This document shows positions 56,327 to 60,001 of a stretch of 64,000 nucleotides of DNA, one piece after another. A program made the position numbers and the translations under genes. Origin of the DNA: Streptomyces sp. NBRC 109706 (GTDB taxonomy: Bacteria > Actinomycetota > Actinomycetes > Streptomycetales > Streptomycetaceae); assembly GCF_000974485.1 (NCBI RefSeq), contig NZ_BBOM01000011.1, positions 124,001 to 188,000 on the forward strand, read 5' to 3'. How positions within the stretch are numbered: position 1 is the first letter of the stretch; each line of letters starts with the position of its first letter. The notes under the pieces are model-generated. The model made no database searches, had not been told where the DNA came from, and saw only the letters and a list, made by a program, of their open reading frames with translations.

Positions 56327-56479
56327 GGGAACCGAGCGGCCCCACGGGGCCGGGGCGCGAGGGTCCGTTCGTCCACCGCCGACTCCCGGAGCGGGGCGGG
56401 CGAACGGTACCGTTGTCCCAGCGGAAGGGAGCGCACGAGCCGGTCGGCCGTGCCGGGGAGAAGACGGAGTGGGGAGCGG

Positions 56480-57172
56480 ATGCGACAAGCTGGTGGGATG
56501 CCCACGCCGCCGCCCGTGCCGCTCGACGGCGGCACCGGGTATGTCCAACTGCCGCCGGGCCAGATGGTGCCGGCCCCCGCCCCCGCCCCGGGCATGGCCA
56601 TGCCGGACGCCCATCACGCGGGCGTGGCCGTGCTGTTGATCGGGCCGGCCGGGGCGGGCAAGACCACGGTCGCGCGGTACTGGGCGCAGCGGCGCCAGGT
56701 GCCCACCGCGCATATCAGCCTGGACGATGTCAGGGAGTGGGTGCGCGCCGGCTTCGCCGACCCGCGCACCGGTTGGGACGACCGTTCCGAGGCCCAGTAC
56801 CGGCTGGCCCGCCGCACCTGCGGCTTCGCCGCGCGGAACTTCCTGGCCAACGGGATCTCCTGCATCCTGGACGACGCGGTCTTCCCCGACCGGCCGGCGG
56901 TGGGCCTCGGCGGCTGGAAGCGCCATGTCGGCCCGGGGCTGATCCCGGTCGTGCTGCTGCCGGGCCTGGACGTGGTGCTGGAGCGCAACGCGGAGCGCAG
57001 CGGCACCCGGCGGCTCTCGGACGAGGAAGTCGCCACCATCCACGGCCGCATGGCCGGCTGGTACGGCTCGGGGCTGCCCATCATCGACAACTCCCGGCAC
57101 GATGTGGCGTCCACGGCCCGGATGCTGGACGACGCCGTCAGCCGCAGTCTGACCAGCCCACCGCAGTGGTGA
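56480..57172 (+). CDS. P-loop ATPase/kinase-like protein
   Basis: A 230-residue protein: Pro-rich N-terminus (~45 residues), Walker A LLIGPAGAGKTTVARYWA, SLDDVREWVRAGF with acidic residues, and CILDDAVFPDRPAVGLGGW. The layout is that of small AAA_33/zeta-toxin-like or polynucleotide-kinase-like enzymes that phosphorylate small substrates. No antitoxin gene precedes it, so a toxin-antitoxin role is not supported. Start at 56480 follows GGGGAG; starts at 56450 and 56498 are possible. Confidence 0.7.
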   Translation: MRQAGGMPTPPPVPLDGGTGYVQLPPGQMVPAPAPAPGMAMPDAHHAGVAVLLIGPAGAGKTTVARYWAQRRQVPTAHISLDDVREWVRAGFADPRTGWDDRSEAQYRLARRTCGFAARNFLANGISCILDDAVFPDRPAVGLGGWKRHVGPGLIPVVLLPGLDVVLERNAERSGTRRLSDEEVATIHGRMAGWYGSGLPIIDNSRHDVASTARMLDDAVSRSLTSPPQW

Positions 57173-57221: not shown

Positions 57222-57233
57222 TAGGCTCGACGC
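57222..57233 (+). promoter_or_regulatory. -10 box of a leaderless promoter
   Basis: TAGGCT (57222-57227) is six bases before the ATG at 57234, with no Shine-Dalgarno sequence. Confidence 0.55.
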
Positions 57234-58340
57234 ATGTCCGAGGTTCACGCGGCTCGACGGTCCTGGCTGCGCGCCCGCTGTTCCCCCGTGAACGGGGCGG
57301 CCGTGGTGTCAGGTCCTGCCAATGTCCGCTATCTGGTCGGAGCCGCCCCCGTGGGTGCGGCGCTGCTGGTGCGCCACTCGGGTGGCGATGTGCTGTTGGG
57401 CCACTGGGACCCGGCCCAGAGCCCCGCGGGACCGCTGGGCGAGTTCGGCGGCCCCAGGATCGTCGCCCTGGACGGTGAGGCCGATCCGGTGGAGGCCGCC
57501 GTCGCCCTGGCCGTCGAGGAGGGGGCGCGGGAGATCGCGCTGGAGGAGCACCATCTGACCGTCGCCCGGCACCGCGTCCTCGCCACGGCGGCGCCCGCCG
57601 TGCGGCTGACGGATCTGGGCCGGGCGGTGGAGGACCAGCGGGTGGTCAAGGACGAGGACGAGATCGCCGCGCTGCGCGTCGCCGCGGAGATCACCGACCG
57701 GGCGCTGGGCGAGCTGCTGGAGTCCATCCTGGTGGGCCGCACCGAGCGGCATCTGGCCCTGGAGCTGGAACGCCGGCTGGTGGACCACGGCGCGGACGGC
57801 CCGGCGTTCCCCACCTCCGTCGCCACCGGCAGCCATTCGGGGCTCGCCGGGCACCGGCCGACGGACCGCAGGGTGGAGGAGGGCGACTTCCTCACCGTGC
57901 GGCTCGGCGCCCGCTTCCGTGGCTACCGCTGCCGGATCGGTCGCACCTTTGTCATCGGCACCAGCCCGGCGGACTGGCAGATCGAGCTGTACGACGTGGT
58001 CTTCGCGGCCCAGCGGGCGGCCAGGGAGGCGCTGACCCCGGGTGCCGAGTGCCGCGCCGTCGACCGCGCGGCGCGCGAGGTGCTGACCGCCGCCGGACAC
58101 GGGAAGGCGCTGGGCCCGGTCACCGGGCACGGGGTGGGACTGGAAATGGGGGAGGACCCTCGGATGGGCCCCGCCGCCATGGGTAGACTGGGCGCTTGTG
58201 TGCCGGTCACCGTCGAGCCGGGGGTGCATCTTCCAGGCCGGGGCGGTGTCCGGATCGACGACACACTCGTCGTCCGCCCGTCGGCGGACGGCGGGCCCGA
58301 GCTACTCACCATCACGACCAAGGAGCTTCTGGCGCTGTAG
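57234..58340 (+). CDS. M24 (Xaa-Pro peptidase-like) protein with degenerate metal site
   Basis: A 368-residue protein with a creatinase-N domain (~1-130) and a pita-bread domain. It aligns to prolidases by TDRALGELLESILVGRTE, TSVATGSHSGLAGHRPTDR and GHGVGLEMGEDP. However, where active enzymes read D-L-G-A and D-x-T-R-T, it has TVRLGARFRGYRCRIGRTF: both metal Asp are Arg. GHG keeps the His, TVEPG keeps one Glu, and RIDDT replaces the last Glu by Asp. It is therefore unlikely to be an ordinary dimetal peptidase. It precedes efp by 69 bases, a place where active prolidases are usual. ATG after TAGGCT. Confidence 0.85.
   Translation: MSEVHAARRSWLRARCSPVNGAAVVSGPANVRYLVGAAPVGAALLVRHSGGDVLLGHWDPAQSPAGPLGEFGGPRIVALDGEADPVEAAVALAVEEGAREIALEEHHLTVARHRVLATAAPAVRLTDLGRAVEDQRVVKDEDEIAALRVAAEITDRALGELLESILVGRTERHLALELERRLVDHGADGPAFPTSVATGSHSGLAGHRPTDRRVEEGDFLTVRLGARFRGYRCRIGRTFVIGTSPADWQIELYDVVFAAQRAAREALTPGAECRAVDRAAREVLTAAGHGKALGPVTGHGVGLEMGEDPRMGPAAMGRLGACVPVTVEPGVHLPGRGGVRIDDTLVVRPSADGGPELLTITTKELLAL
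58188..58194 (+). promoter_or_regulatory. Possible internal promoter for efp
   Basis: TAGACT occurs at about 58185-58190 inside the preceding gene, ~215 bases before efp. It could drive efp-nusB separately, but no -35 is evident. Confidence 0.25.
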
Positions 58341-58409: not shown

Positions 58410-58976
58410 GTGGCCACCACGAACGACCTCAAGAACGGCATGGTGCTCAAGCTCGACGGGGGCCAGCTGTGGTCCGTAGTCGAGTTCCAGCACGTCAAGC
58501 CCGGCAAGGGCGGCGCCTTTGTGCGCACCAAGCTCAAGAATGTGCTTTCCGGCAAGGTGGTGGACAAGACGTTCAACGCCGGTACCAAGGTCGAGACGGC
58601 CACGGTCGACCGCCGGGGGATGCAGTTCTCCTACAAGGACGGCGCGGACTTCGTCTTCATGGACACCGCGACCTTCGACCAGCTGCCGATCAACCCCGAG
58701 ACCGTGGGCGACGCGGCGAACTACCTGCTGGAGGGCCAGGACTGCACCGTGGCCATCTACGAGGAGAGCCCGCTCTTCGTGGAGCTGCCGGCCGCCGTCG
58801 AGCTGGTGATCGAGTACACCGAGCCGGGTGTGCAGGGCGACCGCTCCACCGGTGGTACCAAGCCGGCCCGTCTTGAGACCGGCTACGAGATCGGCGTGCC
58901 GCTCTTCATCACCACCGGTGAGAAGATCAAGGTCGACACCCGCTCCGGCGAATACCTTGGCCGGGTGAACAACTAA
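58410..58976 (+). CDS. efp: Translation elongation factor P
   Basis: A 188-residue [28 protein letters not shown], the tRNA-facing loop [15 protein letters not shown] with Lys at the modification position, and [32 protein letters not shown] in part. It relieves ribosome stalling at polyproline, relevant here because several proteins in this window contain long Pro runs. No EpmA/B or rhamnosyl-transferase gene is nearby. GTG after AGGAG. nusB starts three bases after its stop. Confidence 0.96.
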
Positions 58977-58978
58977 CC

Positions 58979-59404
58979 GTGGCTGCCCGCAGCAAGGCGC
59001 GCAAACGAGCCCTCCAGATCCTCTTCGAGGCCGACCAGCGCGCGGCGTCGCCCGTCGAGGTCCTTGCCGACTGGCAGCGACTCGCCGGGACCGACGAACG
59101 GCAGCCGCCGGTCAGCGAGTTCAGCAGGCGTCTGGTCGAGGGCTACGCGGAGCGCGCCGAGCGGATCGACGAGCTGCTCGCCCAGTACACCGTGGGCTGG
59201 CCGCTGGACCGTATGCCGGTGGTCGACCGCAACATCCTGAGGCTCTGCGCCTTCGAGCTGATCTGGGAGGACGAGACGCCCGACGCCGTGGTGCTGGACG
59301 AGGCCGTGCAGCTGGCGCGGGAGTTCTCCACGGAGGAGTCCCCGAGCTTTGTGAACGGCCTGCTCGGGCGGCTGAAGGATCTCAAGCCGACCCTGCGCCG
59401 CTAG
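58979..59404 (+). CDS. nusB: Transcription antitermination factor NusB
   Basis: A 141-residue all-helical protein: RSKARKRALQILFEAD at the N-terminus, VDRNILRLCAFELIWEDETP and VVLDEAVQLAREFSTEESPSFVNGLLGRL in part. With NusE it binds boxA RNA in rRNA operons. GTG start right after efp. efp-nusB is a conserved actinobacterial pair. Confidence 0.94.
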   Translation: MAARSKARKRALQILFEADQRAASPVEVLADWQRLAGTDERQPPVSEFSRRLVEGYAERAERIDELLAQYTVGWPLDRMPVVDRNILRLCAFELIWEDETPDAVVLDEAVQLAREFSTEESPSFVNGLLGRLKDLKPTLRR

Positions 59405-59500: not shown

Positions 59501-60001
59501 TCAGCCCTCCTCGGCCTGCACCGCGCGGCGCGCGTCCGCGCCCAGCACGCCCCAGCTGATCAGCTGCTCGGTCAGCACCGAGGGCGACTGGTCGTAGATC
59601 ACGGCCAGGGTGCGCAGATCGTCCTGGCGGATCGAGAGCACCTTGCCGTTGTAGTCACCGCGCTGGCTCTGGATGGTGGCGGTGTAACGCTGGAGCGGCC
59701 CCGCCTTGTCGCTGGGCACGTTGGCCAGGCGCTCCAGATCGAGAACCAGCTTCGGCGGCGGCTCGGCGGCGCCCCCCGGCGTGGAGCCCGGCAGCAGCTC
59801 CTGCACCGGCACTCCGTAGAACTCCGCCAGCTCCGCGAGGCGCTGCACGGTCACGGCACGGTCGCCGCGCTCGTACGAGCCGACCACCACGGCCTTCCAG
59901 CGGCCCTGGGACTTCTCCTCGACCCCGTGGAGCGACAGACCCTGTTGGGTGCGGATGGCTCGAAGCTTGGCTCCAAGCTGTTTGGCGTATTCGCTGGACA
60001 T
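59501..60001 (-). CDS. bldD: Developmental master repressor BldD
   Basis: A 166-residue protein. Residues ~1-70 are an XRE-type helix-turn-helix (YAKQLGAKLRAIRTQQGLSLHGVEE in part). The C-terminal domain carries the c-di-GMP signature RGD-x8-RQDD, read as RGDYNGKVLSIRQDD. BldD with tetrameric c-di-GMP represses sporulation genes, including ssgB-class targets, during vegetative growth. Together with ssgB this marks a sporulating Streptomyces. The ATG at 60001 is the usual start. It is convergent with nusB and divergent from pyrR. Confidence 0.96.
   Translation of the reverse strand: MSSEYAKQLGAKLRAIRTQQGLSLHGVEEKSQGRWKAVVVGSYERGDRAVTVQRLAELAEFYGVPVQELLPGSTPGGAAEPPPKLVLDLERLANVPSDKAGPLQRYTATIQSQRGDYNGKVLSIRQDDLRTLAVIYDQSPSVLTEQLISWGVLGADARRAVQAEEG

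Follow-up and report, generated by a model that had tools for sequence, protein, structure and literature searches.

An M24 protein with an altered metal site is encoded beside efp

The window, a 64,000-nucleotide stretch of the genome of Streptomyces sp. NBRC 109706, contains on its forward strand an open reading frame for a protein of 368 residues with no internal stop. It lies in the gene order aroK-aroB-aroQ-P-loop gene-M24-efp-nusB, followed by bldD on the opposite strand (Table 1; aroK was assigned by reading only). The profile score against Pfam Peptidase_M24 (E 1.1e-50, 172.7 bits against a cut-off of 23) and the M24 fold itself both place the protein in this family, and it also matches Creatinase_N (E 6e-8). 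It falls far under the curated cut-offs of the NCBIfam equivalogs PepQ (166.7 of 630 bits), PepP (69.1 of 465 bits) and the PRK09795 aminopeptidase (162.3 of 393 bits). The predicted model (pLDDT 95.5) has an intact prolidase-fold body with helices at residues 141–162 and 171–184, and its top matches among solved structures are Xaa-Pro peptidases (3q6d, Z 42.1, rmsd 2.4, 353 residues aligned; a family absent from the fold-match listing is not thereby excluded). The closest named orthologues, from S. zhaozhouensis, S. triticirhizae and S. sedi, are 92% identical (among the best 80 of 491 loci). The source genome encodes five M24 proteins including this one. Read from their motifs, the other four keep the metal ligands; by sequence, three of the set look like methionine aminopeptidases and one is PepP-like, with 28% identity to the window protein.

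Table 1. Positions of the genes, codons and segments discussed, in window coordinates.
Feature	Position	Strand	Basis or remarks
M24/prolidase-fold protein, 368 aa, probable pseudo-enzyme	57234..58340	+	Open reading frame, Pfam, alignment, predicted model
P-loop kinase-like gene (Pfam AAA_33)	56450..57172	+	Core from about residue 58; start codon uncertain
efp, elongation factor P	58410..58976	+	GTG start inferred from relatives; open frame from 58347
nusB	58979..59404	+	Neighbouring gene
bldD	59501..60001	-	Neighbouring gene
TAGGCT, -10-like box, 6 nt upstream of ATG	57222..57227	+	Putative leaderless-type promoter
Residues 155–187 (end of helix 141–162, loop, helix 171–184)	57696..57794	+	Near-invariant; candidate contact surface
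Codon 206, Gly at active-site His	57849..57851	+	H in 91/91 outside the lineage, 2/177 inside
Codon 223, Arg at first metal Asp	57900..57902	+	D in 91/91 outside the lineage, 0/177 inside
Codon 234, Arg at second metal Asp	57933..57935	+	D in 91/91 outside the lineage, 0/177 inside
Codon 295, Pro at His of active relatives	58116..58118	+	H in 87/91 outside the lineage, 4/177 inside
Codon 299, metal-position His, kept	58128..58130	+	Alignment
Codon 306, Gly at active-site His	58149..58151	+	H in 91/91 outside the lineage, 2/177 inside
Codon 328, metal-position Glu, kept	58215..58217	+	Alignment
Codon 342, Asp at last metal Glu	58257..58259	+	D in 156/159 Streptomyces-type rows
Residues 349–368, conserved C-terminal tail	58278..58337	+	Conserved; constrained at DNA level too

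The protein aligns clearly with the Pyrococcus prolidase chains 1pv9 and 1wy2, and the alignment is ungapped over the metal positions. Active M24B Xaa-Pro peptidases carry the five ligands D-D-H-E-E; the window protein has R-R-H-E-D, with R223 and R234 falling on the two metal Asp, 11 residues apart, and H299, E328 and D342 at the remaining positions. This agrees in every letter with a sequence-only reading of the locus, which had noted Arg at both metal Asp, a retained His and Glu, and Asp in place of the last Glu. That observation was right and understated, for three further histidines of active relatives, unlisted there, are replaced as well (G206, P295 and G306), among them the equivalent of the catalytic His243 of E. 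coli PepP. According to an excerpt of one report, PepP requires His243 and the two Asp (PMC10377022). Homology over its whole length and the prolidase fold (Z 38–42 to solved prolidase-type chains) liken the window protein to the M24B Xaa-Pro dipeptidases and aminopeptidase P (PepQ, PepP, YpdF and B. subtilis YqhT), from which it differs in lacking both metal Asp and the active-site His. Hydrolysis of Xaa-Pro bonds would not be expected of it, and the name suggested by library scores, which put it near the Xaa-Pro peptidases, would mislead work on peptide turnover.

The active site is lost throughout one lineage

Orthologues were taken from the best 80 of 491 named loci and from samples of the genus, class, family and order. 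From the 306 loci we removed four that were own-genome paralogues, ten paralogue hits scoring below 150 bits and then, for their length, five more (L275, L274, L286, L273 and L194). Of these five, L274 and L286 come from one genome, in which the gene is divided between frames; the site letters of L275 are E-A-H-E-Q, both Asp are missing from L273 and L274 over the extent present, and L194 is an incomplete intact-site row. The 287 coding sequences kept give 268 distinct full-length proteins: 159 Streptomyces-type rows, drawn for the most part from the window's genus and otherwise from further genus codes of its family, 18 sister-group rows (genus codes g116, g117, g123, g124 and g127) and 91 intact-site rows. 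These groups were assigned by hand after the site letters had been viewed, and a tree built from 92 of the 268 proteins then served as a check.

Both metal Asp are absent from all 177 distinct orthologues of the lineage formed by the Streptomyces-type and sister groups, which rules out a local or sequencing quirk. The intact D-D-H-E-E set is found in 91 of 91 distinct orthologues outside it, from other actinobacteria that include two genera of the same family (g115 and g118) and, within the order, two further families. No lineage row keeps more than four of the eight active-site letters. The replacements themselves vary. In the 159 Streptomyces-type rows the first Asp position holds C in 99, R in 40, G in 9, S in 7, N in 3 and A in 1, the second holds E in 128, Q in 18, R in 11 and A in 2, and the last Glu position holds D in 156, G in 2 and E in 1; the commonest state over the five positions is C-E-H-E-D (94 of 159), which could hold one metal ion. 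The sister group is mostly A/S, S, H, G, E, with A, S or V at the first Asp position, S, A, C or R at the second, and at the fourth ligand G in 17 rows and A in one. Only nine of 159 Streptomyces-type rows have Arg at both 223 and 234. The Arg pair, whose conservation the sequence-only reading had proposed to check by alignment, is thus not conserved, and a separate function for it is ruled out: these positions drift. The pocket is not wholly free to vary, since H207 and R340, beside the active site, are invariant in 268 of 268 rows and H299, E328 and D342 are mostly retained among the Streptomyces-type rows.

Within the window's genus the M24 protein was found in 147 of 150 genomes, and in 145 of them the match covers at least 353 of the 368 residues without stops. 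The two partial cases are G119 and G028, where the match begins at the contig end. The remaining three genomes (G050, G079 and G112) also lack efp, as do the orthologue-less genomes G655, G467 and G600. Because efp is missing too, these genomes look like assembly or data gaps and we doubt that they record gene loss in Streptomyces, although G655 is rated 100% complete.

A single loss on a long branch

When 92 of the 268 rows are placed in a maximum-likelihood tree, all 60 dead-site rows form one clade (support 100/100), which sits on a branch of 0.52 changes per site and divides into two sister groups. The clade persists when the eight active-site columns are removed (SH-aLRT 100). The active-site loss therefore has a single origin, on one long branch inside the Streptomyces family. 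Parsimony on the tree built without the active-site columns, counting the loss itself, gives 20, 14, 12 and 24 changes at positions 206, 223, 234 and 295, and 8, 16, 4 and 2 at positions 299, 306, 328 and 342. In a tree of 112 thinned rows, Cys at the first metal position needs 15 state changes; within the Streptomyces-type group H299 changes state six times there and Arg/Gln at 234 has one origin. H299 is lost in 10 of the 29 Streptomyces-type rows with R or Q at 234 and in none of the 130 others, these rows being related to one another; the Arg/Gln-234 subclade, to which the window belongs, looks like a second stage of erosion.

Purifying selection continues and constraint has moved to residues 155–187

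The median dN/dS of the M24 gene is 0.055 over 25 Streptomyces-type pairs, each locus being used once, and that of EF-P in the same pairs is 0.048. The ratio is 0.093 in three sister-group pairs and 0.090 in four active pairs; since dS is high (0.63–2.70), all of these ratios are rough. The lineage thus combines a fixed loss of ligands with purifying selection elsewhere in the protein, the combination by which we recognise a pseudo-enzyme. With the single clade and the shift of constraint described below, it strongly supports the pseudo-enzyme suspected in the sequence-only reading.

Conservation was compared between the dead lineage and four active families chosen at similar depth, each scaled to its own mean entropy; conservation lists against the whole class, which is older, were discarded as proof. 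The eight active-site positions have a relative entropy of 1.92 in the dead lineage (1.66–2.16; 200 samplings of 12 rows) and of 0 in the four active families (8 to 12 rows each). Residues 155–187 show the converse, with a relative entropy of 0.16 (0.13–0.21) in the dead lineage versus 1.08–1.21 in the active families. Codons 155–187 of the Streptomyces-type rows show unremarkable synonymous variation (0.79; mean 0.70), which places the constraint on this segment at the level of the protein. These residues would presumably face the solvent.

Synonymous variation in the Streptomyces-type rows is low in codons 131–154 (0.49), 313–330 (0.34) and 349–368 (0.41). Some of the conservation in the 3' part and in codons 131–154 is accordingly not about the protein; signals at the DNA level may be involved, and the conservation of the tail is less telling as a result. 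Codons 313–368 (58170–58337) possibly hold a control element for efp. In the same 3' part, a CTA Leu codon at 357 is kept in at least 90% of 67 thinned Streptomyces-type rows.

A conserved upstream box and a lineage-specific P-loop gene

Upstream of the M24 gene, a TANNNT box lies 5–8 nt before the start codon at 158 of 159 Streptomyces-type and 18 of 18 sister-group loci, compared with 0.5% of shuffles, and it occurs in 50 of 91 active relatives. This lends weight to the promoter proposed from the sequence. No simple ribosome-binding motif is present upstream of the start in the 158 and 18 boxed loci (176 of 177 dead-site loci) and, together with the box, its absence would be as expected for a leaderless transcript. 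A generic sigma-70 promoter scan and a terminator scan gave 0 and 0 hits.

The gene for EF-P adjoins the M24 gene on the same strand in 159 of 159 Streptomyces-type, 18 of 18 sister-group and 88 of 91 active rows. The full-length frame and the position before efp described earlier both stand, and the efp neighbourhood occurs with active relatives as well. According to part of a study of S. erythraea, a pepQ-efp-nusB putative operon is found there (PMC3359211); the window's M24 gene precedes efp in the same way. The tip loop of EF-P (58500–58520) is PGKGG in the window. Of the 159 Streptomyces-type rows, 21 have this form and the other 138 have PGKGP, and active relatives carry both loops (53 and 37 of 90, respectively). 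A loop switch coinciding with the loss is ruled out, as both forms occur in active and dead lineages. The G/P difference correlates with residue 234 in raw counts, but comes down to a single independent pair, too few for a test.

On the other side of the M24 gene, the P-loop gene is found upstream in 135 of 135 Streptomyces-type, 10 of 18 sister-group and 0 of 80 active loci, counted over loci with enough flank (135 of 159, 18 of 18 and 80 of 91, respectively). Its product matches AAA_33 at 40.5 bits, and its best fold matches are 1zp6, a putative cytidylate kinase, and 1qhs, chloramphenicol phosphotransferase. In genome searches every one of 17 dead-site genomes gave a match of E 2e-92 or better; across 30 active-lineage or outgroup genomes no match surpassed 4.6e-11. 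In a class sample of 197 genomes, 16 carried it (E 1e-10 or better) and each of these belongs to the window's genus; no genome of that genus lacked it among the matches listed. An alignment of 60 P-loop proteins has 86 invariant columns. The gene and the lineage without the active site thus appear together; as a single event, this may be coincidence. One obligatory operon of kinase and pseudo-enzyme is a weakened idea, given that in three sister-group genomes (L359, L360 and L361) the two lie 7–14 kb apart with other genes between, the P-loop gene staying by aroQ and the pseudo-enzyme by efp. In many Streptomyces-type loci aroQ was unmatched beside the P-loop gene.

Discussion

We consider it probable that a fixed pseudo-enzyme is kept here for a non-catalytic job, most likely docking through the surface around residues 155–187. 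An M24 Xaa-Pro peptidase encoded upstream of efp would have lost its metal Asp pair and active-site His on one branch of the Streptomyces family and been retained for a non-catalytic role; its intact prolidase-fold body would present the surface around 155–187, perhaps with the C-terminal tail, to a macromolecular partner, and most former catalytic positions would have been left to drift. The binding role suggested by the sequence-only reading is supported in general, because the new constraint lies on 155–187 rather than on the pocket, and the pattern of conservation makes these residues the candidate site for a putative partner. Its more specific idea, that proline-rich peptides are held in the old site, is not supported. 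Taken as a group, the eight active-site positions change more quickly than the average residue of the protein, and where 91 of 91 active rows have the Tyr of the E-P-G-x-Y motif, His stands in 158 of 159 Streptomyces-type rows. We regard the old peptide pocket as an unlikely place for binding.

Could the protein instead have become a different enzyme, either independent of metal like creatinase or using a one-metal C-E-H-E-D centre for new chemistry? Creatinase is an M24 enzyme that works without the metal pair. It is close in fold to the window protein (1chm, Z 36.4), a likeness drawn from the fold; possible ligands (C, E, H, E, D) occupy all five positions in 94 of 159 rows, and R340 and H207 do not vary. 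We nevertheless regard a re-purposed enzyme as unlikely, as the first position ranges over C, R, G, S, N and A with its Cys changing state repeatedly, the sister group has a largely different set of letters, and 175 of 177 rows have lost His206, the counterpart of a residue that E. coli PepP requires according to the same excerpt (PMC10377022). There is also a precedent for a dead M24 protein that regulates a living one: in the available part of one report, C. elegans PID-5, which carries an aminopeptidase-P-related domain with losses of the equivalent ligands and of the same catalytic His, is predicted to be inactive with a binding role and is proposed to form a heterodimer with APP-1 (PMC10377022). 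The window protein is likewise aminopeptidase-P-like with ligand and His losses, whereas PID-5 is eukaryotic, is joined to an eTudor domain and has the active relative APP-1; the two losses probably arose separately. Pairing with an active M24 peptidase seems rather improbable to us in the source genome, which has no close active paralogue, the PepP-like protein being only 28% identical.

The low synonymous variation at codons 313–330 and 349–368 could mean that the gene persists chiefly for its DNA, with control elements for efp in its 3' end. This we hold very improbable: 155–187 is constrained at the protein level only, most of the amino-acid constraint beyond the 3' end would go unexplained, and active families show comparable lows there (f19, 0.38 at 349–368 against a mean of 0.68; f4, 0.49 at 313–330 against 0.75), which means that the dead gene is not peculiar in this respect. 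Decay towards a pseudogene might account for the drifting active-site positions and for the sister-group genome G505, in which the gene is split between frames, but it is scarcely credible beside the low dN/dS, the near-full-length, stop-free matches in 145 of the 150 genus genomes and the conserved promoter box.

To return to the pseudo-enzyme that docks through 155–187, its putative partner may belong to translation (EF-P or the ribosome) or to development, a suggestion whose one basis is the efp-nusB neighbourhood beside bldD; with EF-P in particular, it is gene position that suggests the link. In Bacillus, yqhT presumably adjoins efp. Part of a study of Bacillus sporulation mutants lists both genes in one table, with values of 1.2 and 1 in the same column, and describes delayed entry into sporulation for the yqhT mutant, with polar effects possible (PMC4703394). 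From what that part of the study reports, a developmental role is possible in Bacillus for the M24 gene next to efp, and we infer that the Streptomyces-lineage protein could be tied to sporulation or development. A further step, in which the dead prolidase is partnered with the newly acquired P-loop kinase as a lineage-specific two-protein device on translation or on a sporulation/antibiotic switch, docking through 155–187, we consider doubtful.

M24 pseudo-enzymes as a kind are already known from eukaryotes. The N-terminal domain of Spt16, part of the large eukaryotic histone chaperone FACT, is a non-peptidase whose aminopeptidase-P-like fold resembles the window protein (5ce6, Z 34.7, 17–19% identity). 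An excerpt on LmaPA2G4, a homologue of Ebp1, describes an M24 pseudo-enzyme tied to translation (PMC3888471); unlike the window protein, Ebp1/PA2G4 is eukaryotic and related to methionine aminopeptidases rather than prolidases. Our search of titles and abstract starts in the open-access literature found no description of the bacterial M24 pseudo-enzyme reported here. This is a bacterial enzyme that has probably become a binding protein; the change arose once, and sister genera alive today retain the intact site. Its gene sits in the efp-nusB-bldD region of bacteria noted for their development and their antibiotics.

Some actinobacterial genomes (L309 and L311–L317; f18, f37, g133 and g134) have efp and matched no close M24 orthologue, and the M24 gene seems to be dispensable in some actinobacterial lineages. 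One record titled Kitasatospora aureofaciens (L039) has the Streptomyces-type C-E-H-E-D state, and its label or genus placement may need a look.
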